IMG/VR virus record: IMGVR_UViG_3300043773_000549
Location: 1-23,377 of that record
DNA length: 23,377 nucleotides
Reading direction: 5' to 3' (one strand)
Source: a virus
Within the stretch, counting starts at the first letter, position 1, and every line of letters starts with the position of its first letter. The notes beneath the pieces were generated by a model. It was given only the letters and a program-made list of their open reading frames with translations. It did no database searches and was not told where the DNA came from. The translations under genes were made by a program, and so were the position numbers. This document shows, piece by piece, positions 1-22,730 of the stretch.

Positions 1-194
1 GAACCTTGTTGACCTTGTGAACCCTGAACACCTTGGAAGCCTTGTTCGCCTTGATGCCCTTGATAACCTTGATAACCTTGTTCGCCTTGATGACCTTGTG
101 CACCTTGAACGCCTTGCTCACCTTGATAACCTTGGAAGCCCTGCTCACCCTGTACACCCTGTACACCTTGGAAACCTTGAGCGCCTTGAGCACC
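1..194 (-). repeat. Collagen-coding repeat tract 3 (about 21 triplets, continues off the window)
   Basis: The Gly-X-Y pattern resumes after the Trp-rich module (KGAQG, GFQGVQG and so on). It reaches position 1 with no stop, so the tract and the gene extend further left. Confidence 0.85.
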
Positions 195-2618
195 TTTTTC
201 TGCTATCTTAGTCCAGAATATTCCTTCGGCAGGAGTATCTCCGACATTTCCTCCGTTGGCATTTATTCTATACCAAGTCTCGCCAGCGTATGTAGCAACG
301 TCACCAACGGCATAACTAGTACCAGGACCATACGCACCAGTAAAGTTCCATAGAGCATCGGCGCCTTGATCACCCTGGACACCTTGGAATCCTTGAACAC
401 CTTGATGCCCTTGGACGCCTTGATAGCCCTGTTCACCTTGTGAACCTTGCGGACCGACAATACCTTGATGCCCTTGGAATCCTTGTTCACCTTGATCTCC
501 CTGTACACCTTGGTGTCCTTGAACACCTTGGAAACCCTGTTCGCCCTGTACACCTTGGAAACCCTGTTCGCCTTGACGACCTTGAGCGCCCTGCACACCT
601 TGGAAACCCTGTTCGCCCTGATGACCCTGGAATCCTTGTTCACCTTGGTGCCCTTGCTCTCCTTGAACTCCCTGGAATCCTTGGTGTCCTTGATCACCCT
701 GTACACCTTGATAACCCTGAACACCTTGGAAACCTTGAGCGCCTTGTTCACCTTGATGTCCCTGAGCGCCCTGTACACCTTGGAAACCTTGCTCACCTTT
801 ATCACCACGATCACCAGTTCTTACGAATGTAATCGTCACATTTGCAAGATTTGGTAAACTCGTAACACCAGTTGTATGTGCAATTGGAACTTCAAAATAA
901 TTTAAAGTATGTACATGCGATCCATTAATATCAAAGAATGCAAACTCATTTACGTTTGCAGTATTTGCGACTTTAAATGTACCTTTAATTGTCGATGATG
1001 AGTCGTCAATTGTTTGTAGATAATTGAATACATTAGCACCAGTATCATCGATGTTGTCGATGTACAATCTGGTTGCACCACTGAAATTAGTATTATCAAA
1101 CTTTAAATTTGCAATACCAGGATCGGTATTTGCAGTATTTGTTAGGTAGACAAATTCAAATGATGCGCCGCCAAATTCGCCAGTATCACCTTTTGATCCT
1201 GTGCTACCTTGAACACCTTGGAAACCTTGTGCACCTTGTTCACCCTGGCGACCTTGTGCGCCCTGAACACCTTGCTCACCTTGATAACCTTGTGAACCCT
1301 GCTCACCTTGCACGCCTTGATGACCTTGAACGCCTTGTGAACCTTGTACGCCTTGATGACCCTGTACGCCTTGGAAACCCTGTGAGCCTTGTTCACCCTG
1401 ACGACCTTGGAAACCTTGCTCACCTTGGTGTCCCTGTTCACCTTGCACACCTTGATGACCTTGATCACCTTGAACACCTTGGAAACCTTGTGAGCCTTGT
1501 TCACCTTGACGTCCCTGAGAACCTTGAACGCCTTGATGACCCTGAACACCTTGGAAACCTTGAGCGCCTTGTTCACCTTGATGTCCCTGAGCGCCCTGTA
1601 CACCTTGGAAACCCTGTTCGCCCTGATGACCCTGGAATCCTTGTTCACCTTGGTGCCCTTGCTCTCCTTGAACTCCCTGGAAACCTTGCGAACCTTGTTC
1701 ACCTTGAACACCTTGTGCACCCTGTACACCTTGAAAACCTTGTGAGCCCTGTTCGCCCTGTACACCTTGATGCCCTTGAATACCTTGAGCACCTTGTCTG
1801 CCTTGATAACCTTGTGCTCCTTGTTCGCCCTGTACACCTTGAGCACCTTGAACGCCTTGAGCACCTTGAACGCCTTGGAAACCTTGCTCACCTTGATGAC
1901 CTTGAGTGCCTTGACGACCTTGAGCGCCTTGTACACCTTGAAATCCTTGCTCACCTTGATGTCCTTGGAATCCTTGTTCACCTTGGAAACCTTGTTCGCC
2001 TTGAACGCCTTGTGAACCTTGACGACCTTGAGCGCCTTGAGCACCCTGCACACCTTGCGATCCTTGAACACCTTGGAAACCCTGATGACCTTGAACGCCT
2101 TGTGAACCTTGTACACCCTGTTCGCCTTGTACGCCTTGATGACCTTGTGAGCCTTGAACGCCTTGTTCACCCTTCTGACCTTTTTCGCCTTGGCGACCTT
2201 GTGAACCTTGGAAGCCTTGTTCACCTTGTGGACCTTGATCGCCAGCTAGACCTGTGCCGCCAGTATCACCTTTTTGTCCCTTCTCACCTTGTACACCGAC
2301 AACGCCTTGTGAACCTTGTGCACCTTGCACACCTTGGAAACCTTGGTTGCCTTGATGACCCTGTGAACCTTGTGCGCCCTGTACACCTTGAAAGCCTTGT
2401 GCGCCTTGAATACCTTGTTCACCTTTGTCGCCAAATTCACCCTTTTGACCTTTCTCGCCTTGAACGCCTTGTGAACCTTGTGGTCCTTGTAAACCTTGCG
2501 GACCTGATACAGCAACAATTAGTTGATCCCAACTCGTGCCGTTCCATTGGTAAATTACATCACCAACAGTAAATTGTTGACCAGGTGTAGGCGAATCTGG
2601 AAAATTTGGTATTGTCAT
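1..2618 (-). CDS. Giant collagen-like tail fibre protein (C-terminal part lies beyond the left edge)
   Basis: The reading frame starts at ATG 2618, just after the stop of the upstream fibre gene, and stays open to the left edge, giving at least 872 residues. Residues 1-38 form a short module (FPDSPTPGQ, then YQWNG and W) of a kind common at fibre N-termini. Residues 39-482 are about 148 Gly-X-Y triplets, mostly G-X-Q with X = V, F, Y, H, S, A or E. Residues 483-601 are a folded non-collagen domain starting GGASFEF and ending TFVRTGD, a module type I associate with marine phage fibres. Residues 602-751 are about 50 more triplets. Residues 752-808 are a Trp/Tyr-rich module (WNFTGAY, YAVGDV, TWYR, FWTKIA) resembling small carbohydrate-binding repeats. 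Collagen then resumes to the edge. Phage collagen tracts form trimeric rods, so a long host-contacting fibre is inferred. The receptor-binding end is not visible. Confidence 0.88.
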   Translation of the reverse strand, partial: MTIPNFPDSPTPGQQFTVGDVIYQWNGTSWDQLIVAVSGPQGLQGPQGSQGVQGEKGQKGEFGDKGEQGIQGAQGFQGVQGAQGSQGHQGNQGFQGVQGAQGSQGVVGVQGEKGQKGDTGGTGLAGDQGPQGEQGFQGSQGRQGEKGQKGEQGVQGSQGHQGVQGEQGVQGSQGVQGHQGFQGVQGSQGVQGAQGAQGRQGSQGVQGEQGFQGEQGFQGHQGEQGFQGVQGAQGRQGTQGHQGEQGFQGVQGAQGVQGAQGVQGEQGAQGYQGRQGAQGIQGHQGVQGEQGSQGFQGVQGAQGVQGEQGSQGFQGVQGEQGHQGEQGFQGHQGEQGFQGVQGAQGHQGEQGAQGFQGVQGHQGVQGSQGRQGEQGSQGFQGVQGDQGHQGVQGEQGHQGEQGFQGRQGEQGSQGFQGVQGHQGVQGSQGVQGHQGVQGEQGSQGYQGEQGVQGAQGRQGEQGAQGFQGVQGSTGSKGDTGEFGGASFEFVYLTNTANTDPGIANLKFDNTNFSGATRLYIDNIDDTGANVFNYLQTIDDSSSTIKGTFKVANTANVNEFAFFDINGSHVHTLNYFEVPIAHTTGVTSLPNLANVTITFVRTGDRGDKGEQGFQGVQGAQGHQGEQGAQGFQGVQGYQGVQGDQGHQGFQGVQGEQGHQGEQGFQGHQGEQGFQGVQGAQGRQGEQGFQGVQGEQGFQGVQGHQGVQGDQGEQGFQGHQGIVGPQGSQGEQGYQGVQGHQGVQGFQGVQGDQGADALWNFTGAYGPGTSYAVGDVATYAGETWYRINANGGNVGDTPAEGIFWTKIAEKGAQGAQGFQGVQGVQGEQGFQGYQGEQGVQGAQGHQGEQGYQGYQGHQGEQGFQGVQGSQGQQG
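595..677 (-). repeat. 83-base exact repeat, block B copy 1
   Basis: Read base by base, this stretch is identical to 1600-1682, and mismatches bound it on both sides (C/T on the left, T/A on the right). The offset is 1005 bases, a multiple of three, so both copies encode the same peptide in frame. Exactness over 83 bases exceeds what G-X-Q coding requires, since synonymous positions are also identical. Confidence 0.9.
714..788 (-). repeat. 75-base exact repeat, block A copy 1
   Basis: This stretch is identical to 1539-1613 with mismatches just outside both ends. The offset is 825 bases, a multiple of three but different from the 1005-base offset of block B. The two blocks were therefore not copied as one unit. 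Confidence 0.9.
1539..1613 (-). repeat. 75-base exact repeat, block A copy 2
   Basis: This is the partner of 714-788. In plus-strand order it precedes block B, the reverse of the arrangement at 595-788. Confidence 0.9.
1600..1682 (-). repeat. 83-base exact repeat, block B copy 2
   Basis: This is the partner of 595-677. Here it overlaps the right end of block A (1539-1613) by 14 bases, whereas in the other copy blocks B and A are 36 bases apart and in the opposite order. Confidence 0.9.
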
Positions 2619-2623
2619 TTAGG

Positions 2624-5600
2624 TTACACTGGCATAGAAATTCTTGAAATATTTAGGGTATTCACTGCGAACACAGGATCAAATAATAAGCGCATTTGTC
2701 CAGAACTAATGTCTGAACTGAACGAACCTAAGTATGACCCTGTTGTTACTGTTGCATATTCTGTCATGTAAGTTGTTGTTCCGTTATGTAACAACATCAC
2801 TTCAGTTGCTTGATAATTTGCACCGCTCTTAATTTGAATTAAATATTTTACTGTTCTATATTCACTAACTGGTAAAATGTCAACAACAGTTTGTGCTGCT
2901 ACTGATGTTGTTCCTGTGTTAGCAGAAAGTGTAATTGTATTTACTTTATACTCTGTTGCTTTAACAGTTAATCTACCATTTGATTCAATCAATGTGCTTG
3001 TCACATTTAACTTTGTACCATTTTGTAATACTGATACATTGCCTGTAAATGTGTCACCAGAGCGATTTGCTTTTTCTTGATTCAATGTATTCGCAGATGC
3101 AGCAGAAGCCGCAGTGTTTGCGTCACTGAATAGTAGGTTGCTTGAAGTATTTACGACAGGTGATGGTGTGAGCGATACCCATTGAGTGCTTGTTCCATCA
3201 TTATAGTAAATGTAGAACTTACCAGTATTTGCTCTCCACCATAATGCAGTATTTGAATTTGCTGAACCAGGTGGTGTGTCTGAAATATAAAGTTCAGTGT
3301 TGCCATAAGCAGAAAGACCACTGCCGCCAAGTTTTGGATTATCAAATACAAGAATAACTTTATTATTTGTTGGATCGTCAGTTCCAGTAATAGTTAAGTT
3401 TGAAGAATTTGCTGATTGGAAATCAATTATTCTTCTTGAACCAATATCTGAACTGTCTACCTGAATTGGTGTTACATTTGCTACATTTGCTGTTTCATAT
3501 GCAGCATTCGCTTGATCGTGAGCATCACCAGCAAACAAGTATGCGTCATTAGCAGTTACATAAGCACCATTTGCTTGATTGTAAGCATTATTGGCTTGAT
3601 CGTATGCAAGCGCAGATTGTTGATTTCCAATTGCAAGAGTTGCAAAGGATGTATATGAAATGCCGTCGTCAGTCCATTCCCAATTATCAGAACTTTCATT
3701 CCAACGAATTGAAACGTTTGTGTTTGCGCCACGATTAACTGTGAGTAATGCATTGAGTAGAGGTTCGCCAGTTACATTTGAGTTAAGAACAATTTCATTG
3801 TCCTCAACTTTGATCATTGATACGTTGAGTACTGTACTATCACCAAGAACAGAAAGATTACCTGTAACTGTTAAGTCGCCATTGATTGTTGATAAGGTGG
3901 CATTTGAAACAGAAGTGACGCGACCTTTATCATCAACAGTAATTGAAGCAATGTTTGAACTATCACCATAAGTTCCAGCAATCACACCTGTTGTAGCAAG
4001 TCCAAATTCAACGTTAGCATTACCAGAAGCAGCGCCTGCACCAGCAGTAACACTTACTGTCACATCACCAGTGTTAACAAAATTAAGCTGTTGTTTGCTT
4101 AATGTTGACCCACCATTTGCAGAAACACGAACAGTATTTGCTGCAAGATTAGCAGTTGGTGATAATACATTATTAACATAAGTTCTTAGAGCATCAGTTT
4201 GCTCTATAGCATCTACCGCAAGCTCTTCTACAGTACCAATATATTGATCTAATTCATATACAGTATTTGCTGTCGCTGCTAATGATTTACTGTTACTATC
4301 AAGAAAATCATACAGCTGAACAACACCAGTTTGTGTTGTATTTGCTTCACGAATAGAAACATTTGCAACAACAACATTACTTGTGTTTGATGTACTGACT
4401 GATAATAACGAACCTCCAATCGTTTGAACTTTTAGATTTGCGCGTTCAGTTGTATCGTTAACCCAAGTTTGAACATTGTAACCAGCAAGATTGATTGAAT
4501 TTGCAGTCAGACTGGTAATGGCAATTTCATCACCAACAGTCGTACTTACTTGAGTGTTGCCGAGGAACAATGTAGTTCCTGACAAATACAAATCGCGGAA
4601 ACGTTTATTAGGTGTACCGAGATCGTATGTGACGTCTAGATCGGGAACAATATTTTGCGATATGATTGTTGCGGCAACATTCAAGTTGCCAGTCATTGTA
4701 TCGCCAGCCTTCAATACGCGAGTATTTGCGTTATCGTTTGCTGTATTTGCTTGAGTGTATGCTGCATTTGCTTGACTGTAAGCAGAATTTGCTTGGTCAT
4801 AAGCGGAGTTTGCTTGATTAAATGCGGCAATAGAATTTACATCATCGCCTTTAGCGCCTTGTGCGCCAGAATCGCCTTTGTCGCCTTTTGATCCTGTTGC
4901 ACCTTGCGCACCATCAATGCCAGCTGTGCCTTGTGCGCCAGCAAGACCTTGTGCGCCCGTGTCACCTTTATCACCTTTTGTTCCTGCATCACCAGCAAGA
5001 CCTTGTGCGCCTGTGTCACCTTTTGATCCAACAGCACCTTGTGCACCATCAACACCAGCTGCGCCTTGTACACCCTGAGCACCAGTATCACCCTTTGCGC
5101 CCACACTACCTTGTGGACCAGCAGTACCAGCTTCGCCTTTTTCGCCAGCAGCACCTTGAATACCTTGTGCGCCAACTTCACCTTTTGCGCCCGCATCACC
5201 TTGCGCACCAACAGCACCTTGTGTGCCTGCTAAACCTTGAAAACCTTGCGCGCCGACTTCGCCTTTCGAACCAACATCACCTTGTGCACCTACAAGACCT
5301 TGTGCGCCAGTATCGCCCTTATCACCTTTGGTGCCAGCAATACCCTGCGCACCTTGCACACCTTGCTCACCAATACCAGCAAATGTACCTGGAATACCTT
5401 GTGCACCCTGCACACCTTGCGCGCCTTGTACACCCTGAGAACCTTGTACGCCTTGGAAACCTTGATTACCTTGTGCACCCTGCACACCTTGCGCGCCTTG
5501 TACACCCTGAGAACCTTGTACGCCTTGGAAACCTTGATTACCTTGTGGACCAGATGCGCCAGCAATCGGAGTTCCACTACCAAGAACAACCGAGCCGATA

Positions 5601-5629
5601 GCGTTTTTATTCGTTAAATTGATTTTCAT
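2624..5629 (-). CDS. Collagen-containing long tail fibre protein (1001 aa)
   Basis: After about 23 residues a collagen tract runs to about residue 260, first G-X-Q, then mixed with charged KGDKGDTG units. Next comes an Ala/Asn-rich heptad-like stretch (QANSAY repeats, about 267-298). A segment with AGDTMTGNL and [15 protein letters not shown] follows, typical of marine phage fibres. A second QANNAY-type stretch lies at about 671-716, followed by a segment with LYISDTPPG and [11 protein letters not shown]. The last 95 residues ([23 protein letters not shown]) resemble a C-terminal domain common in T4-like marine virion proteins. A rod-and-coil trimeric fibre is inferred. The start ATG overlaps the stop of the preceding gene by four bases (ATGA), implying coupled translation. 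The stop is five bases before the next fibre's ATG. Confidence 0.9.
4850..5560 (-). repeat. Collagen-coding tract of the 1001-aa fibre
   Basis: About 79 Gly-X-Y triplets occupy residues 24-260, with a break near residues 77-82 ([13 protein letters not shown]). The N-terminal third is G-X-Q and the rest mixes GAQG with Lys/Asp/Glu triplets, unlike the nearly pure G-X-Q of the left-edge fibre. Confidence 0.85.
5395..5547 (-). repeat. 72-base exact tandem duplication within the collagen tract
   Basis: Positions 5395-5466 and 5467-5538 are identical, and the match runs nine bases further to 5547. Each unit encodes eight triplets (24 residues), so the duplication keeps the frame. No base difference between the copies suggests a recent event or ongoing homogenisation. 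Confidence 0.93.
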
Positions 5630-5958
5630 CTAGTTACCTGAGGTGTGACTGTTACTATGCCTTCCATAATTCTAATTGTCACATCTGTGGTATCCATCAT
5701 TAAAATGTCATAAACGTAACGCCCTGGCTTGATATTGGCAGTAACTTCTGAAGCCATTGTTATCTTTAAATTACCGTTTGGACCATCGATGATGGTAACG
5801 ATTAAATTTGCGGTTAGATTTGTTGAATAGTGAGACTTGCGAAGTTGACCTGTGAATGTATAACCAGCGACACTCATAGGAGTGCCGTCGTCATTTTTCA
5901 AATCCATATTTGTTTGATAATCAGTTCCCTGATCAACAAATAAGTCTATATAAGCCAT
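5626..5958 (-). CDS. Small beta-rich virion protein upstream of the long fibre (110 aa)
   Basis: The preferred start is ATG 5958; a TTG one codon upstream would add one residue but is less likely. The protein begins MAYIDLFVDQGTDYQ and contains GYTFTGQLRKS, PGRYVYDI and the ending [10 protein letters not shown]. This layout occurs in short phage tail proteins, seemingly Ig-like or baseplate-adaptor folds, carried beside fibre genes; my recognition is of the pattern only. No signal peptide or membrane segment is seen. The start overlaps the stop of the previous gene (TGATG), and the end overlaps the 1001-aa fibre start (ATGA). The three genes are therefore translationally coupled, and a role in fibre attachment or assembly is inferred. 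An AAGAG ribosome-binding-like motif lies about eight bases upstream, inside the previous gene. Confidence 0.8.
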   Translation of the reverse strand: MAYIDLFVDQGTDYQTNMDLKNDDGTPMSVAGYTFTGQLRKSHYSTNLTANLIVTIIDGPNGNLKITMASEVTANIKPGRYVYDILMMDTTDVTIRIMEGIVTVTPQVTR

Positions 5959-6464
5959 CAATTATCTCTTAGATACTCGTATGTTAAGGTTTTTAGTGTG
6001 TCAAAATCAGAACAATTCACTATCCTTGTATCTGATGGCATATCTCTTAATTTTTGTTTTTTAGCGGCAATCGTTGTTTTTAACGCAACATCACCCGATT
6101 CGTCTGCTTTTTGATAATCTATGTCAAGTTGTTCTAAGTCTGCGCTTCTCATTGATCTGATATAATTCGCATGACATTCTTTAGCCTTTTCCATATTTAT
6201 GGTAAATTGAATTGGAGAAGAAACGTCGTCAAAATTGCCTTCTAAAGCAACCCAGTAACCGACATTTGCACTATTTGAAAGTGCGACCTTATCAAATTCA
6301 GCTTTATCGGTTGGATTTTCTAAATCTACAACTTTATATTGAGAGTTTTCAGGAATATCTTTAGCAATAACCTGTTCCAAAGGAAGAACCCCTGTAGGCA
6401 TTAAAATAGCGAAAGAACCACCATTATTCTTCAAATTATCGTTGGTATAAACAACTAATTTCAT
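5958..6464 (-). CDS. Tail-fibre assembly (chaperone-like) protein, putative (168 aa)
   Basis: The N-terminal half has a layout seen in small phage proteins next to fibre genes: MKLVVYTND, then AILMPTG, LEQVIAKDIP and YKVVD. The C-terminal half is helical and charged (EKAKECHANYIRSMR, LDIDYQKADESGD, KKQKLRDMP). This recalls the helical ends of Tfa-type fibre chaperones, but there is no clear match to a named family, so the function is inferred from layout and place. It is the first gene after the 54-base gap and is preceded by a good ribosome-binding site and a late-promoter-like octamer. Its TGA overlaps the next ATG. It could instead be a minor virion component. Confidence 0.75.
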   Translation of the reverse strand: MKLVVYTNDNLKNNGGSFAILMPTGVLPLEQVIAKDIPENSQYKVVDLENPTDKAEFDKVALSNSANVGYWVALEGNFDDVSSPIQFTINMEKAKECHANYIRSMRSADLEQLDIDYQKADESGDVALKTTIAAKKQKLRDMPSDTRIVNCSDFDTLKTLTYEYLRDN

Positions 6465-6473
6465 GTTAAAAAA

Positions 6474-6480
6474 CTCCTAA
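6474..6480 (-). promoter_or_regulatory. Strong ribosome-binding site for the chaperone-like gene
   Basis: The coding strand reads TTAGGAG nine bases before ATG 6464. This is a cleaner Shine-Dalgarno than most genes here have, as expected for the first gene of a transcript. Confidence 0.75.
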
Positions 6481-6493
6481 AGATATTTGTTTA

Positions 6494-6501
6494 TATTTAT
6501 T
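6494..6501 (-). promoter_or_regulatory. T4-type late promoter candidate (AATAAATA)
   Basis: The coding strand holds AATAAATA followed by an AT-rich run, 29 bases before ATG 6464, in the longest intergenic gap of the window. T4 late promoters are a lone TATAAATA box without a -35 element, and the looser NATAAATA form is, as I recall, described for marine T4-like phages. It would launch the chaperone and long-fibre transcript. Confidence 0.6.
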
Positions 6502-6518
6502 CATCAGTGTTTCGCTTA

Positions 6519-7904
6519 TTAACTGGTAGGTTTACTACCGACCACAATAACGCTTGCATCTTGTGATATGAAATATCGGGTTGCACGATTTCCTGAACTA
6601 TAATTCCCAGACAATCCATAAGCAACTTCTACATAACTGGTGGTTTTATCGATCAGTTGCAAATGACCACTTCCAAGATAATAATATGTAGACTCAGCAG
6701 AATTTGGTTTTCTAGCGGAACCTATGACTGAAAAGTTCGCATCTGTCATTGGAGTCCCGAAATTAAGTCTGTAAACATAAACCGTAACAGGGTAAGCGCG
6801 TTTCCTTATACCAGGTTGAATGTAAGAAGATATAGTTATACTTGAAATGTTATTGCTCGAGGAAATGGTGGGACTAAATCCAGTAAACCCTCCACTAAAG
6901 TTTGCATAAGCTGAAACAAGTTCTGCAACTATTGCATCATCTCCAACTATTCCTGTATAACCAAGATCGCCTTTTTCGCCCTTTTCTGAAGCAGCAGCAT
7001 TCGTTCCAGCATCACCTAAAATGCCCTTATCGCCCTTCGCTCCTTTTTCACCTTTTGTTGCACCTATTGATTCGCCTTTCTGACCTTTCTCCCCATCATC
7101 GCCAAATTGTCCATAACCAAACTCACCTTTGTCACCTTTATCGCCCTTTGTTCCACCGATAACTTCACCAGTTTGACCGATGAATCCTTGAAATCCCTGA
7201 GCTCCTTGTGTGCCTTGTCGACCCGAAACGCCTTGTGAACCTTGCGCGCCCTGCACACCTTGAACGCCAGGTTGTCCTTTTTGCCCCTTTTGCCCTTTAA
7301 TGCCTTTGTTGCCATCATCAGGTAAAGATATTTCAACTTCAACATCAGTAACTTTTGTATTCGCAGTATTTGACGTCACTACAGCGGAAGCAATGCTATT
7401 TGCTAAAAAATTCAATCCACGATCAATGCCTTGAAATACACCTTCAACATAAATTGGAGTTTTGGAAGGATATGGATCGCCTTGAATCCAACATTCTCCA
7501 GAATTGTCACCACCAACAGTCAAATCAGTTACGATAGTGTTTTGGCCAATAATCAATGTATTTGAAATTAAATATTTTGCAGATAAAGTATTTGCAATTT
7601 CTAAAATAACTTTTGTATTTGAAAAACGCGCATCATCACCATGATAAAATGCTTGATCGTGGACAATTTTAGTTTTTGTGGTAAAGTTGTTTTGAACGTT
7701 TGCATTTGCTGCAACATTCAATGTAATGCCTGTTTGTTTGTCCACAAACAACGCACCATTATTAATGATAAAATTCTCACCTTTATCTTTTACATAATCT
7801 CCATTACGAAGATCATTAATAGAATTAGCAAGATCATTTGTCGCACCACGCCAATCGCTGAACGTGTTGCTTAATGTTATGTGTGATATATTTGCATTAG
7901 CCAT
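6519..7904 (-). CDS. Collagen-containing fibril protein, downstream paralogue (461 aa)
   Basis: Residues 1 to about 199 are a folded N-terminal region starting MANANISHITLSNTFSDW, with NDLRNGDYVKD, SNTLIIGQNTI and CWIQGDPYPS. From about 200 to 320 is a collagen-like tract rich in charged triplets (GQKGQKGQ, TKGDKGDKGE), with several non-Gly-X-Y breaks (GEVIGGTKG, GTNAAASEKG). Residues 325-461 form a C-terminal domain (FGTPMTDANFSVIGSARKPN) related to one found at the ends of many marine phage fibre-like proteins. It is a clear paralogue of the gene just upstream, ten bases away. The ribosome-binding site is weak (AAGAT), so coupling to the upstream gene is plausible. A trimeric accessory fibre or whisker is inferred. 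After its stop comes the 54-base gap with a promoter candidate. Confidence 0.88.
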   Translation of the reverse strand: MANANISHITLSNTFSDWRGATNDLANSINDLRNGDYVKDKGENFIINNGALFVDKQTGITLNVAANANVQNNFTTKTKIVHDQAFYHGDDARFSNTKVILEIANTLSAKYLISNTLIIGQNTIVTDLTVGGDNSGECWIQGDPYPSKTPIYVEGVFQGIDRGLNFLANSIASAVVTSNTANTKVTDVEVEISLPDDGNKGIKGQKGQKGQPGVQGVQGAQGSQGVSGRQGTQGAQGFQGFIGQTGEVIGGTKGDKGDKGEFGYGQFGDDGEKGQKGESIGATKGEKGAKGDKGILGDAGTNAAASEKGEKGDLGYTGIVGDDAIVAELVSAYANFSGGFTGFSPTISSSNNISSITISSYIQPGIRKRAYPVTVYVYRLNFGTPMTDANFSVIGSARKPNSAESTYYYLGSGHLQLIDKTTSYVEVAYGLSGNYSSGNRATRYFISQDASVIVVGSKPTS

Positions 7905-9545: not shown

Positions 9546-12254
9546 TTAACCCTTTGGTGTTGCGATCGTACGCATATCAAGAATACTTGGATATACAGTT
9601 GGATCGGATGAAGTTAAAGCAATTTTAACTGCGAATGTTTTAAACTTACCGCCAATTGGATATGTGACATTATTTTCAACATATTTCAATTCTCCACTTT
9701 CCAACGTTGGACGGAACTCAATTTGTACAGGTGTTTCCTGATCTTTACTTGTGAAGTCCGTAAACTTCTTCATTATTCTCCATGATTTATTTGTAAATGG
9801 ATCAGGATCTGATCCCGAAAGAACCTTGTAATAAACATGAATATCCGTGCCAGGTGGCTTAATTGCACGCAAGTAAACGCGCATGTCACCAGCATCAAAT
9901 CCATCAGCAAGAACAATCTGTTTCGAGATATATTTACTAAAGATATTTCCACCGTTTCTTCCAGTCTCACCAGAAATTGTTGCAGTTGCTGTAGTATTGC
10001 CAGCAGAAACTGCTGGTGCTGCAATTGTAATTGTTGGTGTAGTGATATAACCAAATCCTGGATTATCAATTATAATATGATCAATGGTATTTGCTAATGG
10101 TGATCCAGCCGTATTATTTCTTACAGCATAACCATTAGCACCCGAACCATTACCATCTGGATCAACAATGGTTATTGCAGCGTTCGTAGTATAACCAGTA
10201 CCAGAATTAGTAATTGAGATTTTACCATTTGAAATTCCAGCATTATTAATAACATTACGCATTGCAATAATACCAAGACGTTCGCGATTGATAATTGGCG
10301 AAACATCTGCGTCACTGGTTATCATTTCCAATTGAACATTAATGCTTTGTTTAGAACCTGCACTCAAAATACGACGTCTTGAAGAAGTTTTAATTGACGT
10401 GCTCAAATCTCCACCAAAACTATAAACTCTATTTGGTGAAATTGTGATGAAGTCAGCATCCATTGCCCCAGTGTTTGCAGATTTAGTTTTAATCTTATAG
10501 TCAATATCTGTAGTTGAGAATGAAGTGCCTGTTGCATGCAAATACATACGATCCATTAACACTAATTTGGTTACTGGAGTGTGTTGGAAACCAACTCTAG
10601 CAATCGTGTCTTTAGTGAATGAACATTTATTAATCACAAACATTAAGTCTTGATTTTGATATGGCGTCCATGTAGAAGCATTTTGAGAACGGAAGAATGA
10701 ACCGACATATGGTTGTTCAGAAACACGTCTTGGTGGATTTGAACCAAGAACGTCCTGACCCAACTCAGAAATAAACACTTCATAATCTGGAGATTCAGAT
10801 TGAACCACCAAAGCATACTCAGTATCTGGTGCCAGATATACTGGATCTGGAAATCTGAATTTAGTCAATGTTGATGGATCATTTGCGTCTGGAATGTCAG
10901 AAGTTACAACATCTTTCCATTCAACAGTTGCGACAGAAATAATTGTTTCTGTTGGGAATCCATTCAATGTCGTTACAATGCGACAATTAACTGGGAATTG
11001 AACACCGTCAATACCATCAACATCAGTGCCTGATTTTGGTTTTGCTTTGAAAAACAAATCTACGCTGCTGATAAAGATACCATAATTTTGTTTTGGACTT
11101 TTTGGTACTGGTGTGAAGAATGTTTGAGCCACTGGATCGCGACGACGTCGGCGTGTTGTTGGTGGCTGCTCTCTTGGTGGAGTAACAATCTGAGTTGGTG
11201 GCGTTGAAACTGGTGGTGTAACTACAGTATTAACTATACCAAGTGCAGTATATTTTGCTGATGCATATAAACCAATATCACTATCTTTAGCTGAAGTGCG
11301 ATCTGTTATTACGAAAAGTTTTTCGCCAATAGTAAATTTGAAGTTTGGTGTTTCTGGAATATGGAAAATGCCAGGAACTGTTCCAAAATCATCAATGTAA
11401 GATTTGCCAATTGAATATTTGGTATTTGTTGAAAATTCAATTGATGGTGCAACGTTAAGTACAAGTTCAGCTCCATTAATAACATTATCAATTGTACGAG
11501 CCTGACCCAATCCAGTACCAGAAGCAACGTAAACCACATTTCCAACAATGGAACTTGAAACGTTCGTTGAGGTGAATAGCGTTCTGCTATTTCCACTATT
11601 TGCGCGGAAAACAATGCCTGAGTTATGTTCTGAACTTACAATCGTAAGTGTATTACCTGTGTCGACAGAACGAACAACTTGTGATGCTGCAAAACGATTA
11701 TTTGCAACAACGCTGGCTAAATTTGCTGTGAATGCGTCACCTAATTTATAAACTATACTTGTTGCATTACCAACAGCAACATTACCAGAAATAGGAGACA
11801 TTACAAGAACAGCATTCGCATGATCCCAATGTTCAACTCTAGCAATAAATCTGCTGTCAGCATATGACCCTGGATTTGTCGCATTAGTTTGATACACAAT
11901 ATCATTTGCAGCAAAATTAGTTGCCGAAAAAGATCCAACAACAAGCGACATATTTGCAGTAATGAAATTCTCATTCAAATAAAGAATGTTATTTGCTGTA
12001 GATACAACTTTAGCATATGCTTTTGTTGTGTTATTGATTACGCCGCCATTTTGACCAAAATTGGAACTTGCGACGTTTTGCGAAACTACTAGTTTAGAAG
12101 GTTTTTGAACAAAGTTATTTACAGCAACATCATCAAAGAAAAAATTAACTTCTTTGTCTGGGCGTAAATTTGTTCCCACAAATAATACTTCTCTCCCACG
12201 AATATGTGGAACGACTTGAGTATTAACTACTGCTCTTTGCGTTGTATCTGTCAT
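9546..12254 (-). CDS. T4-like marine phage virion structural protein (902 aa), baseplate or tail
   Basis: The N-terminus (RAVVNTQVVPHIRGREV, then LRPDKEVNFFFDD) matches a layout conserved in large structural proteins of T4-like marine phages. A Pro/Thr-rich linker (about 343-367) ends in five arginines (368-372). A conserved block follows: DPVAQTFFTP, GIFISSVDLFF, YLAPDTEYALVVQSES and RSQNASTWTP. Near 681 and 729 are two GxGY beta repeats (NSGTGYTT, NPGFGYITT). The C-terminal 160 residues hold KQIVLADGFDAGDMRVYL and end at SILDMRTIATPKG. It has no enzymatic motif I can see. The start ATG is preceded by an AAGGT motif ten bases after the stop of the 237-aa gene. A structural place at the baseplate rim, linking to the fibre genes that follow, is inferred from order. 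Confidence 0.85.
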   Translation of the reverse strand: MTDTTQRAVVNTQVVPHIRGREVLFVGTNLRPDKEVNFFFDDVAVNNFVQKPSKLVVSQNVASSNFGQNGGVINNTTKAYAKVVSTANNILYLNENFITANMSLVVGSFSATNFAANDIVYQTNATNPGSYADSRFIARVEHWDHANAVLVMSPISGNVAVGNATSIVYKLGDAFTANLASVVANNRFAASQVVRSVDTGNTLTIVSSEHNSGIVFRANSGNSRTLFTSTNVSSSIVGNVVYVASGTGLGQARTIDNVINGAELVLNVAPSIEFSTNTKYSIGKSYIDDFGTVPGIFHIPETPNFKFTIGEKLFVITDRTSAKDSDIGLYASAKYTALGIVNTVVTPPVSTPPTQIVTPPREQPPTTRRRRRDPVAQTFFTPVPKSPKQNYGIFISSVDLFFKAKPKSGTDVDGIDGVQFPVNCRIVTTLNGFPTETIISVATVEWKDVVTSDIPDANDPSTLTKFRFPDPVYLAPDTEYALVVQSESPDYEVFISELGQDVLGSNPPRRVSEQPYVGSFFRSQNASTWTPYQNQDLMFVINKCSFTKDTIARVGFQHTPVTKLVLMDRMYLHATGTSFSTTDIDYKIKTKSANTGAMDADFITISPNRVYSFGGDLSTSIKTSSRRRILSAGSKQSINVQLEMITSDADVSPIINRERLGIIAMRNVINNAGISNGKISITNSGTGYTTNAAITIVDPDGNGSGANGYAVRNNTAGSPLANTIDHIIIDNPGFGYITTPTITIAAPAVSAGNTTATATISGETGRNGGNIFSKYISKQIVLADGFDAGDMRVYLRAIKPPGTDIHVYYKVLSGSDPDPFTNKSWRIMKKFTDFTSKDQETPVQIEFRPTLESGELKYVENNVTYPIGGKFKTFAVKIALTSSDPTVYPSILDMRTIATPKG

Positions 12255-12264
12255 TTTTTATACC

Positions 12265-12978
12265 TTAATTACTATCATAACGATATCTTAAGAAATCCAC
12301 ATCAATTGATCTACCACTAGTGCCTCTTCTTGAAGAATCCACTGCAATTGAATTTTCCACGACTAATGGATCCATTCCAGCACCATTAGTTGGCTGTTGA
12401 TCTGTTGATCTTCCGAAGAATTCCACTAGAGAAGAAATAGGGCGTTGACCATCTACCGTTCTCTGAGAATTTACTGTTGCAGCAGGTTCCGAATTCAATA
12501 CACCCCAAACAACTTCTGTTGAATTGTCCGCCAACGTTGGAACATTAACTCCAGAAGTGGCAGCAAACAAGCCACCAGTCAATTGTGTTGAGTTAAATGG
12601 CACAAGTGAAGAAAGTAGAAGGTCTGTTGATAAATTTACTGGGAAGATTGTTGAATTTAGAACTCCTGGTTGCGTTGCAGCATTTACAAGGTTATTTAAT
12701 CCACGAGAATCGCTTGTTTGATTTGTTGTGGTTGGTGTTAATTTCTCAGAAACAAACACGTCAGTTTCTGGATTAAGTTTTAAATAACCATCAAAACGAG
12801 CAAATTCATAAGGCTGAACCGTAATTGCTTTAGTCGCAGTTGTTTGCGAAATTGCAGGTTCTTCCGTAAAATTTAAAGTGATAGTTTTATCATTTATTTT
12901 ATAACCACTTGTACCAGAAATTGCTGATGAGTGTATTAACTCAAGTGGTGTTTTTTCAGTATATGGTCCTAATGCCAT
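12265..12978 (-). CDS. Virion structural protein of unknown role (237 aa)
   Basis: The protein starts MALGPYTEKTPLELIHSSA and contains ITVQPYEFARFDGYLKLNPE followed by TDVFVSEKLTP. That motif recalls a short segment (NPY...W.G...LSP..D.W) that I remember near the C-termini of DUF4815-type proteins, so this may be a detached C-terminal piece of the gene just upstream. This is inference. It ends in a basic/aromatic tail (DFLRYRYDSN). The sequence is rich in Ser, Thr and Asn and has no membrane segment. A good AGGGAG ribosome-binding site lies six bases before the ATG, and an 11-base gap separates it from the DUF4815-type gene. Confidence 0.75.
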   Translation of the reverse strand: MALGPYTEKTPLELIHSSAISGTSGYKINDKTITLNFTEEPAISQTTATKAITVQPYEFARFDGYLKLNPETDVFVSEKLTPTTTNQTSDSRGLNNLVNAATQPGVLNSTIFPVNLSTDLLLSSLVPFNSTQLTGGLFAATSGVNVPTLADNSTEVVWGVLNSEPAATVNSQRTVDGQRPISSLVEFFGRSTDQQPTNGAGMDPLVVENSIAVDSSRRGTSGRSIDVDFLRYRYDSN

Positions 12979-12984
12979 CTTAAA

Positions 12985-12990
12985 CTCCCT
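12985..12990 (-). promoter_or_regulatory. Ribosome-binding site AGGGAG for the 237-aa gene
   Basis: The coding strand reads AGGGAG six bases before ATG 12978 and overlaps the end of the upstream stop codon region. It fixes the start of the 237-aa gene. Confidence 0.7.
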
Positions 12991-15900
12991 TATTCTATTG
13001 ACGCTAAGAAGTCGTCATTAGTAATGTCTGCAGTCAAAAACCCTTCAAACGTATCTACAACAATACCATATTTTTCTTTTTCGCGTAAATTATCTTCATA
13101 CAATATTGCTGTATCTGATGCGAGAGCCTCTATTTGTGTCAATGACGTATAGATTTCTAATGCTTCGATTCTCTTTTCAAGAGTACCAATATCTCTCATC
13201 GTATATCGTTTATTTTCTACATACTGCAATTTAATTTCTGCAACATTTGCCGCATACGCAGGAGAATTGATGACATACAATGTCATTGCGTCATCTGAAT
13301 CGTTTGGTGGAATTGGATTTACGGCAGAAGTTCCTCTGCGAATCTTAAATTCCTTATCTTTTGTTAGAATCAATTTATCAATTCTTGGTAAATAGAATTG
13401 ATATGACAATTCCATCACTTCAGAAGGTTTCTGTACCCTATTTCCAAAGAAAGAAACGGATGGTTGTCCTACTGTTCTGGTAGGTCTAAAGTCAACGCAA
13501 TCGCGTAGATTGTAATATCCGCCATTTTGGCTATAATAAATTGGGATTGCACCTGATGCATACTCTGTTGCAGGATAAGAATCCACATTGAAGTAACCAG
13601 ATGCAGCACCAGCAGAGTGATCGTAATATTTTAAGAATACGACAATTTGTCCCTTTGGTGCATTGTAACCTGGACGGAGTGTAATACTTGCGTGGTCATA
13701 TAAGTTATCTCTTTGACCACCATCAAGGTAATAATGTTCAGTAATGTCGATTGCATTAACAGTATTTGGCGCATAATTAATATCACCAGAATCATAAACT
13801 TTGATAAGTTTAACGACGTCAGGAACATAAAGACTCATTGGAACGCCTGGTTCACTTTCAATTGGTCCTGCGCTTGTAAACCAAACATGTCCTCTGGTCG
13901 CATCAATTTTAACAGAAGCGCCAATTGGTGCGCCCACGGAAACGCCATTGCTTGGTGTGTCGGATGCAGTCAATACAGTGTTTGATGTGTTTCCAACAAC
14001 ATTTTTTCTTCGACGAGCAACAGATTCTGTTTGTGTGTCATCAACCTTAACTGTCATCAAAACGTCAGCAACAATTGCTGCGCCAGTGCCTGTGTAAATT
14101 GTTATTGATTTTTCATTAGTTTGGAAGATACCAGAAGTGCCAGTCGTTAAATCAATAATATCGCCGTTTGCATATAATGTTGAACCTGAGTTACTACGAA
14201 CAATAGCAATAACATCTGTATTTGCTTGAGTATCTGAAACAAAACTTCCAGTTCTACCAAAAGTAAAGGATTCACCAGTTGATAGATGTCCACCACCGTC
14301 GGAAAGAGTAATCTGACCGTTGCTTGTAAACGTTAAGTTAGTCAATACCTTTCTGTGGTAAAAATCAGCATTAGTGATCGATCCGTTAGCAACATAATTT
14401 TGACCCAAGCGGAAGATCATCGTATTCAAATTAGTGTCAGTAATGTAGGTATTGCTTGTAGAGTCTTTACTATCTGGATGAACATCCATAGTTGCATATA
14501 CACTACGAATAGTATTCCAATTACCATCAGTAGCAGAAGGTGCATAGGTCATAGAATTCAAATCTTTAATTGAGAAATCTAAACGACCTGTGCCACTTGC
14601 TGATGTAGTAAATGGTGATGCAACTGTTGCAGTTCTTGTGCTACCAACATAATTAACAATTTCTCTACTATCGCCAGTAGAATCTAATGTCACTATAACA
14701 TTAGTGTATGCGTTGTCTGTTGAAGAAAAATCTGAAGGTAGTATCAAAGTTGAAGATGTGCCACTTACAACAGTAAAAGAAAGTGGTTGAACATTGGCTT
14801 CGCAAATATATGCTTTATAAATCGTAGCAGATTCTCTATCAAAATTGCGAATCTTTGCCGTTCCGATTCTTGTGTTTGCATATGTTCCAAAAGAATATTT
14901 GTCTACATTCGCGCTATTGACGCAATGTAGATCAATTGTTGGTAGAGCAAAGTTGAAGAAACCTTGATTACTTGAATGTACATTTGCAACATACAAGTAA
15001 TTTCCATATTCAATGTTTAAATCAAAGTCTGTAGAAGTTTGTTTATCGCGAGCCTTTGAAGCAAGCAATTGAGTTGGTCCGACTGTCTCGAACTCAAATC
15101 CTTTAACGTATGCCTTACCAGGATCAAGATTGATAATATAAGTGTTTCCTGTTGCATCTTTAGTATTTGCGCTTAAAGTTGCACGGAAGTTTCTTACTGT
15201 GTAATCACCTGATTCATCAAAGGTACGACGAGCAAGAGTTTTTTCCAATTCAGAATAGATTGGGTATTTGACTTGCTTTGTGATAATACCATTTTCAACA
15301 CGGAGCAATTCAAAGAAGCGAGATTCATCTGTTGAATTAAGAGCTCTTGTTGTTAATTTGAGAGAAAATTTATAACGATTTGCTCCAGGTGCTTGGTAGT
15401 TGAATGAGCCAAGTGCAGGATCTAGTAATGTAGAATCTTGAGACGCATCAACGATGTCATCTTCAATTTGTAAACCAATTTTTGCAGAAGGTGTAATTCC
15501 ATATGGATCTAAAGTAATTGTTTGTGGCAATACTTTAACGAAGAAACCGCTTGCATAAAAAACGCCTTCTTCGATACTTACTGTTGTGCCAACTCCGACT
15601 GCGTCAGTCAATATTGTTTGAGCGTAATATGTGGTTGCGCCGACGGTTCGGAAAGTCTCATTGTTGACCAAAGAACCACGCAACATCTTTACCATTAAAG
15701 TTGGTGAAGTTCCTGTTGCTGTTGGCGCAAATGTAGCAATGACGCGACCACGCTTAACTTCGCTACCGCTATTATTGATAATTTGTTTATTTAAAAAGTT
15801 GTCGAGGTCTACGTCTTCATTATTATAAGTTGGTAAAATTTTAACATATGATACATTATTGTCAATGGTCAGCTGACCGCCAACTACAGGACTACCATCT

Positions 15901-16070
15901 TTGAAAATATGATCGCCGAACTTCTTAATTTGATCTTGAATGATCGTTTGAAGTTGCGTCAATTCTCTCGCTTGGACAGCGTACTCTGGACGAAACAATA
16001 TACGAACATAATTATTATCTTCGTCGAAGTCGTCATAGTATGGTTCAATGTTAAAAAAACCAATTGCCAT
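12990..16070 (-). CDS. DUF4815-type baseplate or tail structural protein (1026 aa)
   Basis: The N-terminus (MAIGFFNIEPYYDDFDEDNN, then YAVQARELTQLQTIIQDQI and FGDHIFKDGS) is the hallmark start of the DUF4815 family, a large virion protein of T4-like marine and related phages. Further motifs include GKAYVKGFEFET (about residue 315) and YYNLRDCVDFRPTR (about 850). Near the C-terminus are a helical segment (TMRDIGTLEKRIEALEIYTSL) and the ending TNDDFLASIE. The length is near what I expect for this family. It follows gp8 by 15 bases, so it sits where T4 has gp9-gp10. A role as baseplate-to-fibre connector is inferred from position, not shown. A TAGGT ribosome-binding motif precedes the start. Confidence 0.87.
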   Translation of the reverse strand: MAIGFFNIEPYYDDFDEDNNYVRILFRPEYAVQARELTQLQTIIQDQIKKFGDHIFKDGSPVVGGQLTIDNNVSYVKILPTYNNEDVDLDNFLNKQIINNSGSEVKRGRVIATFAPTATGTSPTLMVKMLRGSLVNNETFRTVGATTYYAQTILTDAVGVGTTVSIEEGVFYASGFFVKVLPQTITLDPYGITPSAKIGLQIEDDIVDASQDSTLLDPALGSFNYQAPGANRYKFSLKLTTRALNSTDESRFFELLRVENGIITKQVKYPIYSELEKTLARRTFDESGDYTVRNFRATLSANTKDATGNTYIINLDPGKAYVKGFEFETVGPTQLLASKARDKQTSTDFDLNIEYGNYLYVANVHSSNQGFFNFALPTIDLHCVNSANVDKYSFGTYANTRIGTAKIRNFDRESATIYKAYICEANVQPLSFTVVSGTSSTLILPSDFSSTDNAYTNVIVTLDSTGDSREIVNYVGSTRTATVASPFTTSASGTGRLDFSIKDLNSMTYAPSATDGNWNTIRSVYATMDVHPDSKDSTSNTYITDTNLNTMIFRLGQNYVANGSITNADFYHRKVLTNLTFTSNGQITLSDGGGHLSTGESFTFGRTGSFVSDTQANTDVIAIVRSNSGSTLYANGDIIDLTTGTSGIFQTNEKSITIYTGTGAAIVADVLMTVKVDDTQTESVARRRKNVVGNTSNTVLTASDTPSNGVSVGAPIGASVKIDATRGHVWFTSAGPIESEPGVPMSLYVPDVVKLIKVYDSGDINYAPNTVNAIDITEHYYLDGGQRDNLYDHASITLRPGYNAPKGQIVVFLKYYDHSAGAASGYFNVDSYPATEYASGAIPIYYSQNGGYYNLRDCVDFRPTRTVGQPSVSFFGNRVQKPSEVMELSYQFYLPRIDKLILTKDKEFKIRRGTSAVNPIPPNDSDDAMTLYVINSPAYAANVAEIKLQYVENKRYTMRDIGTLEKRIEALEIYTSLTQIEALASDTAILYEDNLREKEKYGIVVDTFEGFLTADITNDDFLASIE

Positions 16071-16085
16071 TTTTTGTACCTACTA

Positions 16086-17675
16086 TTAAATCTTTACAAT
16101 TAAACGAATAACTTCAGCTTGTTGGTCATCTCTCACTATCGGGCTGCGATTATCAATATAAAGTAATCTGCCCGTAAATGGCGAAACCTCAGTGTCTTCT
16201 TGAGTTATGATTGAAGTCTGAGTACCAGTCGTTCTGCCTACGATTGGAAGGTTTAAATCGACCGTTCCACGCGTGTTGTTTAAATGAAGTGTTTTCGTAT
16301 CATAATCCCAATGAACTACTGTGCCTGTAAAGGTTGCGTTTGCAAAAACGTCGCCTTGATAGACAGTTTCGTCTAAAGCATATTTATTGCCCGAGGATGG
16401 AGCAACTAATCCTAATCGAGTAGTGGTAACGTACACCAAATCATTAGCGAACGCTGTTGTCGTTGGATATAATCTTGGATTTAAAAGCAATCCAATTTGT
16501 CTATAATCGAGTTTCTCATCACCAGATATTGTTGGTATTTTTCCACCCTCGTCGCCGTCAAGTTCGACGGCAATCATTACATGAGATGCACCCAATTCAT
16601 GAACTGGATTTGAACCATGTCCATTTATAGGGGCAATTTGAACATCGAATTCGGCATTTGCACCAGTTGCACCTGTATCGTCGATAATAACATTAGCGTA
16701 TGAATAACCGCTTCCACCATTTAAAATGTTCAATCCAGTAAAGACGCCTTCTTCGATTTTTGCTGTTACATTGGCTTCTGTTCCATCACCTTCAATGGTA
16801 ACAATAACTGCGGAATTGCTATTGCCTCCACTTATGTAACCATCTCCCCCATTAAGGATTTTAATTACGTCGATGGAACCTGCACCAGCCGTTCTAGCAA
16901 CTAGACTATCCGTCAACACAGGCATCCAATCCTTACTCATAAACTTCAATTTTTTGCTGGCTGGAATAGTGTAAAGATACTTCCACTTATAACCGTCGCC
17001 TAATTCAATATATGGGTTTTCTGGGAGTTGACCAGCTACCGTTATTTCTGGCATAATTGTAGAGTTGGCACCATCATTATTGAACAAGCATTTGAACACT
17101 TGATCTTTTGTATTTCTAACATAGAATTGTTGAGAATAACTTGGAGAGCCATTCACTATAGAATAAGCAGCGTTGGAAACGATAGCCGCTGTACTAAATT
17201 TGTTATTTACTGTTAGGTATGTGTTATTGGCAATATTAATGACTTCGCGCGAAACGCCATTAATCTTTATAATTCTATTATTTGAAACGTTGGTACTAAA
17301 TTGTGTATTCCTACCAACTACGATTACGCTATTTGCCGCAACGTTTACTGTACCTTGAATTTGTGTAGTTGTGATTGGCGTAAACAAATCTGTACCATCA
17401 TCATATTCATCATATGGCGTATTATTAGCCCAATCTTTTCTTGGCACGATAATTTGAATATCTGAGCCGATAATCTTTTTCATCGCAATCATATCGCGAT
17501 AAACTTGATTCGTATAATTTGTAGTTTCTTCAGGAGTTTCTACGCTTGTGTCGTTGGTACTCCAAGTGACTGGACGACCTATCGTAACATAGGTATTTGC
17601 TACTGAACTTGCAAATATATCGTCGATTCTTTCTACGATTGAAACACCGAAACTTTTTAAAATTTTACTGCTCAT
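16086..17675 (-). CDS. 8: Baseplate wedge subunit gp8 (529 aa)
   Basis: The N-terminal part carries YTNQVYRDMIAMKKI, IIVPRKDW and YDEYDDG, a conserved run of gp8 in T4-like marine phages. VRNTKDQVFKCLFNN and YIELGDGYKWKYLYTI follow, also typical. gp8 is a dimer in each of the six baseplate wedges and acts during sheath contraction triggering. At 529 residues it is longer than T4 gp8 (about 334), and the extra length includes GxGY beta repeats near 273 (GGDGYISGG) and 319 (GGSGYSYAN). It lies between the gp7-like gene (six-base gap) and the DUF4815-type gene. The ribosome-binding site is poor (AAAAAGAA), consistent with coupling to the upstream gene. Confidence 0.88.
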   Translation of the reverse strand: MSSKILKSFGVSIVERIDDIFASSVANTYVTIGRPVTWSTNDTSVETPEETTNYTNQVYRDMIAMKKIIGSDIQIIVPRKDWANNTPYDEYDDGTDLFTPITTTQIQGTVNVAANSVIVVGRNTQFSTNVSNNRIIKINGVSREVINIANNTYLTVNNKFSTAAIVSNAAYSIVNGSPSYSQQFYVRNTKDQVFKCLFNNDGANSTIMPEITVAGQLPENPYIELGDGYKWKYLYTIPASKKLKFMSKDWMPVLTDSLVARTAGAGSIDVIKILNGGDGYISGGNSNSAVIVTIEGDGTEANVTAKIEEGVFTGLNILNGGSGYSYANVIIDDTGATGANAEFDVQIAPINGHGSNPVHELGASHVMIAVELDGDEGGKIPTISGDEKLDYRQIGLLLNPRLYPTTTAFANDLVYVTTTRLGLVAPSSGNKYALDETVYQGDVFANATFTGTVVHWDYDTKTLHLNNTRGTVDLNLPIVGRTTGTQTSIITQEDTEVSPFTGRLLYIDNRSPIVRDDQQAEVIRLIVKI

Positions 17676-17681
17676 TTCTTT

Positions 17682-20657: not shown

Positions 20658-22720
20658 TATTTGGATATTGGTGTTAATCTGACGGAGATACTTTCAGGGT
20701 CGTCATAATTCAACGTTAAAATCTTATTCTGATTTGATTCAAAAACTGTATTTTCTGGTTTTGCGTGAATGCTTAATTGCTTAAAGTCGTTGAGAACATC
20801 TAATATTGCCAATTCACTGATCGTAACTTTACCTGTTGTATAATCAATTGTGCCAATACTTTCGTTTACGAAAACCTTTATTTGATTATCGTCAAAATAG
20901 TACATTCTCAAATTACCAGTTTTGCCCTGAATGACAACTTTTGCAGAAGCACCTCTAGCCTCTGAACCACCACCAGAAATTCTAGCGACTGCAGTTGTAT
21001 ATTCTGAGCCTCGTTTGATGACATTAATTGATCTAATTCTACCATTTACGACAACTGGTTGTGCAGTCGCGCCAGTGCCGTCGCCGATAATTTCAACAGT
21101 TGGAGTTTCAGTGTACCCAGTACCTGGATCTAAAATTTCAACTGTATCAATTCCTGAATATGAGAATGGTACTTCTTCAATAAAGCAAGTACGAATCACA
21201 TTGCTTGTATCGGCAATTTCAAATCCTGGAGAAGAATATAAACGATTTTCTGTTGTTCCACGAGCAAGTGGAATACCAAAATCTAAAGTATATGAACGTC
21301 TATTATTCAAGAAAGGTTTAAATTTCTTTTGTATAAAGATATTGAGTTCATTACTCAAGATAGCAGGATCTGAGTCGTCAATCTTTCTTGTTAAACGAGA
21401 TGCTCTAAATGTTGAATTGAACTTATTCAATTCTTGATTTACAAAGGTTGTAATCGCAACTTTTATCGCACTTTCAATCTGAGGAGGTGTTTTGTTTGTT
21501 CTCAATGGATCATAAGTTGCACGAACACCAAAGTTCAAATAGTTATAATCTGCATCGATAAATTCTGGCGTAACAGTCAAGATACTGATTGGTTTGAGAA
21601 TTTCTTCTTTAAGGAAATTCTTTTCCACTTCTGTGATTTCAAATCCATCTCTTGGTTTGGCGGAAATGAATACTCTACCATATTGTGGTGGTACCAATTC
21701 TTCGCCGCCCCAAACTGTTACTGAATCGAAATATGGATACTTTTTATTAATTAATGCGATGTAGTCGTTTTTAGTTACTGCACGATTTTGTGACAAATAT
21801 GCTTTAGGTGCGCTAAAACGAATACTGTCAATTGTTTCAATATCAGCACCAGCTGAAGCACTTTGGGCTGTTGTGACAGAAACGTTACTGAAACCGTCTA
21901 AACTATCAATTAGTGAAAACGTATTTGCTTTATTAGATAAAGGACCATCGGTAATCAAATAACTAATTACAACAAGATTACCATCCTCTAGTTTTTTACC
22001 GAGAACGTTATCGCCGAAGTATATTTGATATTTCCCATTATCAACTTCATCAACATAGTATACTGGGCTAGTTGCTTCAACAACGGAAGCATCTTCTGCC
22101 AACACAAACTTTTCTGTTTGTAGATTTGTTGCAGACTTTTGAATGGTAACTTCGATCGTTGATGTATCAATTCCTGTATCAGGAAGTTTAAATTTTTGTT
22201 GTGGATTTGTTAAGTCATCTACCACAAAAGTATAGATGAGTGGAACACCTTGTTTGATTACGGCATTTGGTAAAGTAAACTTACCATTGGTTTTTTCTAA
22301 AGTTTTATCTTCGAGTAAAACGAATGTGAAATTTGTTCCATTTATATTTTCGCTTCTGAAGCGTGTGAAGCGAGGAATCAAAAGCAAATTTTGATTGCTT
22401 TCGCCAACGCCAGGAGTGACCTCAACATTAACTCGAGCAATTGGCGCTACTCTTGATCTTGGCATATATCCTAAAAGTTTTGCGTGCGAAACGACAGACG
22501 ATCTAAGATCAGCAGTATCCATAAACATTTCATTCGCAATCATATTTGTGTAATATGACATGTAGTGAGTGTTGTATGCAAGAATATCCATAAGAATATT
22601 CAAGCCTGCACCCTCGAAATCATAATCCGTAAATTCTGGTTTCGATTTGATGAAATTTTTCAGATTATCTTTAATGTTCTGAAATTCTAATTCAGTTATT
22701 CGAATTTTCGATTCTGCCAT
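20657..22720 (-). CDS. 6: Baseplate wedge subunit gp6 (687 aa, BaseplateJ-like)
   Basis: The N-terminal region (IRITELEFQNIKDNLKNF, DYDFEGAG at 32-39, LAYNTHYMSYYTNMIANEMF, KLLGYMPRSR) is typical of gp6. This protein dimerises to form the continuous ring joining the six wedges around the hub. The middle part has YLSQNRAVTKNDYIALINKK and YPYFDSVTVWGGEE, the BaseplateJ-type core shared with P2 gpJ. T4 gp6 has 660 residues, so the length fits. An inserted GxGY module lies at about 533-575 (DPGTGYTETPTVEI), which I do not know from T4 gp6. The start is ten bases after gp25, with a TAGGT motif upstream, and the stop overlaps the next start. Confidence 0.93.
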   Translation of the reverse strand: MAESKIRITELEFQNIKDNLKNFIKSKPEFTDYDFEGAGLNILMDILAYNTHYMSYYTNMIANEMFMDTADLRSSVVSHAKLLGYMPRSRVAPIARVNVEVTPGVGESNQNLLLIPRFTRFRSENINGTNFTFVLLEDKTLEKTNGKFTLPNAVIKQGVPLIYTFVVDDLTNPQQKFKLPDTGIDTSTIEVTIQKSATNLQTEKFVLAEDASVVEATSPVYYVDEVDNGKYQIYFGDNVLGKKLEDGNLVVISYLITDGPLSNKANTFSLIDSLDGFSNVSVTTAQSASAGADIETIDSIRFSAPKAYLSQNRAVTKNDYIALINKKYPYFDSVTVWGGEELVPPQYGRVFISAKPRDGFEITEVEKNFLKEEILKPISILTVTPEFIDADYNYLNFGVRATYDPLRTNKTPPQIESAIKVAITTFVNQELNKFNSTFRASRLTRKIDDSDPAILSNELNIFIQKKFKPFLNNRRSYTLDFGIPLARGTTENRLYSSPGFEIADTSNVIRTCFIEEVPFSYSGIDTVEILDPGTGYTETPTVEIIGDGTGATAQPVVVNGRIRSINVIKRGSEYTTAVARISGGGSEARGASAKVVIQGKTGNLRMYYFDDNQIKVFVNESIGTIDYTTGKVTISELAILDVLNDFKQLSIHAKPENTVFESNQNKILTLNYDDPESISVRLTPISK

Positions 22721-22730
22721 TTTAAATAAC

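Follow-up and report, generated by a model that had tools for sequence, protein, structure and literature searches.

In Streptococcus thermophilus phages, the collagen-like repeats of the antireceptors have been proposed as recombination hotspots (Desiere 1998; Duplessis and Moineau 2001, as cited in the relevant passages of PMC7242381 and PMC5601072), and the same passages of PMC7242381, with the references there, indicate that deletions in phage collagen-like repeats are already known. In the collagen domains of EPclA and EPclB, side tail fibres of E. coli prophages, length varies in multiples of three residues, according to the passages of PMC3368898 that deal with them. In the Guarani virophage, an 81-nt in-frame deletion that arose within the population in the collagen-like gene ORF8 was linked to a wider host range (PMC7242381), and in Enterococcus phage EfV12-phi1 in-frame tandem duplications of the tail fibre were selected under co-evolution (PMC6365445). 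In addition, the sections of PMC7029224 on pelagimyophages and cyanomyophages describe a host recognition cluster downstream of VrlC that forms a hypervariable island, with putative receptor-binding proteins that include collagen repeats. The process in which phage collagen repeats recombine and change length is thus already known, and the stretch of viral DNA analysed here (positions 1 to 23,377 of IMG/VR record IMGVR_UViG_3300043773_000549, hereafter the window) is a clear, small and well-resolved new case of it.

The case lies in a minus-strand gene (3..2618) that begins with an ATG at 2618 and, according to the ORF list, runs past the left end of the window with at least 872 aa. The gene matches Pfam Collagen (PF01391, E 8e-111) and the tail fibre families of PHROG. 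Its protein starts with a short N-terminal segment, after which come collagen tract 1 (1164..2504, 149 Gly-X-Y triplets), a non-collagen bead domain of about 120 residues (816..1175, FGGASFEF... to ...TFVRTG), collagen tract 2 (357..815, 51 triplets), a second bead (192..374) and the start of collagen tract 3 (6..194, 21 triplets before the window ends), all on the minus strand. Both the long, uninterrupted Gly-X-Y tracts and the position of the gene within a tail-fibre and baseplate region are features of a collagen-like tail fibre. Baseplate wedge genes and VrlC homologues occupy 9546-23126 of the window, in the gene order of the Pelagibacter phages HTVC008M and Mosig (family Kyanoviridae), and the fibre gene therefore sits at the described site of the host recognition cluster. 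A DNA search of cultured phages gave no close relative, tblastn with the whole rod found the bead only, and no RNA families or tRNAs were detected in the window. Judged from its sequence, the gene is a predicted multi-bead collagen-like tail fibre of an uncultured T4-like phage, downstream of the baseplate and VrlC genes.

Searches of Pfam and of PDB folds with the first bead returned weak matches only, among them a Pfam match to the N-terminal domain of the PRD1 P5 spike, and its structure model had a mean pLDDT of 69.6. Strong matches to viral collagen proteins were found in BFVD, where this bead is common. The bead recurs three to four times in relatives' versions of the fibre, and across relatives (including the IMG/VR contigs that we designate L089 and L091; other L numbers are used likewise) the number of bead copies per gene varies from one to four, with the beads interrupting the collagen tracts. 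The second bead weakly resembles a chitin-binding module, carbohydrate-binding module 5/12, at an E value of 4e-4 that is under the Pfam cut-off, and it had no match among cultured phages.

The VrlC-like baseplate protein (9546-16070, minus strand) is split into three ORFs of 1026, 237 and 902 aa in the lineage of the window. In Pelagibacter phages and in L040 a single gene of about 2000 aa encodes it, and in L016, L022 and L024 there are two ORFs of about 1250-1315 and 900-970 aa, a series that resembles the splitting of a gene in successive steps. Positions 12265-12280, which fall at the end of the ORF for the 237-aa protein, hold 16 nt (TTATGATAGTAATTAA on the coding strand) that are found in the window and in L009 and are absent from L010, L011 and L088; their presence or absence swaps the last few residues and the stop of the 237-aa protein.

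Within the fibre gene, two blocks of sequence occur twice, base for base. Block B comprises 83 nt (595-677 and 1600-1682, offset 1005) and block A comprises 75 nt (714-788 and 1539-1613, offset 825), all on the minus strand; an exact-repeat search reproduced both blocks and their positions as given in an earlier note on this DNA. That note had placed all copies in one collagen tract, which is incorrect, as they lie in two tracts with the first bead between them. In coding order, tract 1 carries block B first (1600..1682) and then block A (1539..1613), joined at a 14-nt word common to both, GGTTTCCAAGGTGT in coding sense (1600..1613), by which the two overlap. In tract 2, block A comes shortly past the bead (714..788) and block B comes 36 nt past A (595..677). 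Because of the overlap of B and A in tract 1, GGTTTCCAAGGTGT recurs in tract 2 at 775-788 and 595-608, exactly 180 nt apart. The copies are direct and not inverted, and their edges are sharp, with the same diagonals at background right outside A and B. The only other exact repeat longer than 32 nt in the whole window is an 81-nt tandem repeat in the neighbouring gene. The offsets are in frame, as had been claimed; in addition, each leaves a remainder of 6 on division by 9 and the difference between them is 180 (20 x 9), so that the Gly-X-Gln triplet register is kept along with the reading frame.

We consider it probable that the 83- and 75-nt rod stretches were recently copied in register between tracts 1 and 2 by a repeat-mediated process. 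We infer that recombination, either homologous or by template switching, brought this about in the course of replication; the nine-base Gly-X-Gln repeats would serve as homology within the fibre gene. The two offsets and the opposite order, which one direct duplication cannot yield, require a minimum of two template steps. These could have been two separate patches, or else a 180-nt tandem duplication of A, the linker and B at the shared 14-nt word may have created the B-A junction, followed by a single transfer of 144 nt into the other tract. The earlier proposal of at least two in-frame exchanges is accordingly right as to two steps and a preserved frame, but one tandem duplication plus one transfer could account for them. 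A larger, circularly permuted unit that includes the 36-nt linker was also considered and rejected, as the linker does not rise above background identity when compared with the sequence past A in tract 1. The immediate outcome would be a rod that is rearranged or replaced, and over time such a process could alter rod length and bead spacing. Genes of a diversity-generating retroelement or an invertible cassette were not assigned among the scanned ORFs, which form part of those in the 23-kb window.

An origin outside the gene is an unlikely alternative source of the blocks. Here, rod sequence would have reached both tracts during co-infection, from a relative of the phage or from a different fibre gene, which would be in keeping with the hypervariable host recognition clusters of these phages as outlined in PMC7029224. 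The gene also extends past the window, where a further copy could lie. However, exact-pattern scans of 2.9 million IMG/VR viral contigs, which may omit the window's own record, located the A and B cores in one contig only, IMGVR_UViG_3300042539_000600, and this contig has the same A/B arrangement as the window. A source and a target within the same gene are also simpler.

The second contig comes from a separate metagenome and is 99.87% identical to the window: over 14.3 kb the two differ by three SNPs and a 16-nt indel, all of which lie outside 496-7855. It bears on the possibility, raised in the earlier note, that the second copies were produced by the assembler, through repeat-induced misjoining or chimerism of strain variants. 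The fibre gene is very rich in repeats, out-of-frame differences of the kind that misassembly produces occur in other contigs of the group, and the comparison is between contigs, so that 3300042539_000600 could share an assembler bias. Nevertheless, an identical arrangement without SNPs across 496-7855, in a contig that differs elsewhere, weakens this escape; moreover, A and B lie in different flanks, and frame and register are intact through the whole ORF. Misassembly of repeats usually collapses copies rather than inventing them. We therefore regard an assembly artefact as improbable. Between near-identical IMG/VR contigs, L090, L116 and L110 show out-of-frame differences of 50, 74 and 103 nt, which are probably assembly faults and call for caution with repeat genes in such contigs.

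The age of the rearrangement was approached through the closest divergent relative, 3300010354_000352 (L089), which has about 80% nucleotide identity to the window and a fibre version of 2282 aa with three beads. Colinearity of tract 1 with L089 begins near codon 56 and extends to position 1704 of the window, with 0.77-0.83 identity where the background is 0.61-0.67; its end falls at the edge of block B, and the fused B-A block is at background (0.66 vs 0.65). The A/B repeat pair is absent from L089, in which there is no exact repeat longer than 47 nt. In tract 2, nearly the same 20-nt word follows the bead in both and the sequences then diverge. Either direction of copying fits the comparison with L089: tract 1 breaks at the edge of B, and tract 2 departs from L089 as well, some 20 nt inside A. 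The first bead starts at residue 482 in the window and at residue 479 in L089, so that tract 1 differs by one triplet and replacement fits as well as insertion. The search gave no relative at 90-98% identity. By this comparison, the rearrangement would be either younger than the split from L089 or erased in L089.

Relatives that share the arrangement with normal substitutions between the copies, for which the earlier note had proposed to look, were not seen, the nearest divergent relative having no A/B pair. This also bears on a reading in which the repeats are old and have stayed identical because gene conversion is ongoing or because selection acts on the DNA itself, for example on a recombination signal. 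Repeats of similar size do occur in the same gene class of another lineage (L102-L107), where exact dispersed repeats of 89 and 75 nt have an offset of 243. However, those repeats differ from A and B in sequence and offsets, and the A/B repeats are missing entirely from L089, the nearest relative whose tract 1 is colinear, which makes great age very unlikely.

Chance matching of a low-complexity tract was ruled out by the shuffle nulls. When the 221 nine-base units of the gene were shuffled (1000 runs), the longest exact repeat was 41 nt, compared with the 83 and 75 nt observed, and when synonymous codons were shuffled with the protein fixed (1000 runs) it was 56 nt; the probability that all codons are identical given the same peptide is about 10^-6.5 per block. 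Convergence through a small nine-base vocabulary that yields long matches without copying is hardly credible: only 86 of the 221 units are distinct, the best non-self 90-nt matches elsewhere have about 0.80-0.87 identity, and a second-order model gave 75 nt or more in 2 of 1000 runs (an unfair null, since it was trained on the gene with the repeats included), but both shuffles fall short of two independent matches of this size, and the larger collagen genes of L089 and L091 reach just 38-41 nt in their dispersed repeats. The gene thus holds exact internal copies beyond chance with the frame kept, one of the features by which repeat-mediated intragenic recombination is recognised.

Differences in length occur in neighbouring and related collagen genes. 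The neighbouring collagen fibre gene (2624-5629) contains the exact 81-nt direct repeat (5395..5547, minus strand), with copies at 5395-5475 and 5467-5547 and a period of 72 nt. The 72-nt unit is present in two copies in the window and in L088 and in one copy in L009 (3300042894_002146), which is 99.9% identical to the window over 18 kb and has one SNP near the missing unit. Further pairs or sets of near-identical contigs differ within their collagen tracts, by 9 and 9 nt in L091/L092, by 81 nt in L110/L113, by 108 nt in L102/L119 and by 9 or 18 nt in L012/L013/L019. All of these differences (9, 18, 72, 81 and 108 nt) are multiples of nine. Those of 72, 81 and 108 nt have 50-98 nt of junction homology, and it is therefore possible that they reflect collapse by short-read assemblers; the 9-nt differences are less open to this. 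Taken at face value, the multiples of nine by which near-identical contigs differ point to variation of fibre length in natural populations of phages. The earlier idea that the gene shuffles its rod and may change length agrees with the length-altering shuffling that seems to occur in this gene class, but for A and B themselves a change of rod length is not supported, with tract 1 within one triplet of that in L089. It is conceivable, and we offer it tentatively, that frequent in-register copying between tracts acts in natural populations as a standing generator of frame-safe variants in rod sequence, length and bead spacing, with the reach of the fibre a variable trait tuned by recombination. 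A functional change resulting from the A/B copying is likewise something that we infer.

In conclusion, what is new at this locus is a clear internal record of opposite-order copying, together with hints of standing length variation. The A/B record documents in readable form how phage collagen fibres of great length are rebuilt out of segments that they already contain, and if fibre length varies in populations, reach could track changes of the host surface as fast as receptor-binding tips do. As in the S. thermophilus antireceptors, collagen-like repeats are found in a host-recognition tail protein; unlike in those, as far as the passages cited above describe them, there are two exact internal copies in opposite order within a much longer, multi-bead T4-like fibre. 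EPclA and EPclB share with this gene class collagen lengths that vary in steps of three residues, whereas their rods are shorter and their other domains are different non-collagen ones, and the passages of PMC3368898 on these fibres do not describe internal copied blocks. Guarani ORF8 is similar in having an in-frame change in a collagen-repeat gene, but the change there is a deletion in a virophage of giant viruses and here it is copying inside a phage tail fibre (PMC7242381). In EfV12-phi1, a long tail fibre gene likewise contains an internal in-frame duplication, which lies upstream of a domain predicted to bind carbohydrates; however, that duplication is a 1.8-kb tandem for which collagen is not mentioned and which, in contrast to the present case, was under direct experimental selection (PMC6365445). 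Finally, the fibre gene sits downstream of VrlC as in the pelagimyophage and cyanomyophage cluster, for which the relevant sections of PMC7029224 describe turnover at the level of whole genes, in contrast to the intragenic copying seen here.
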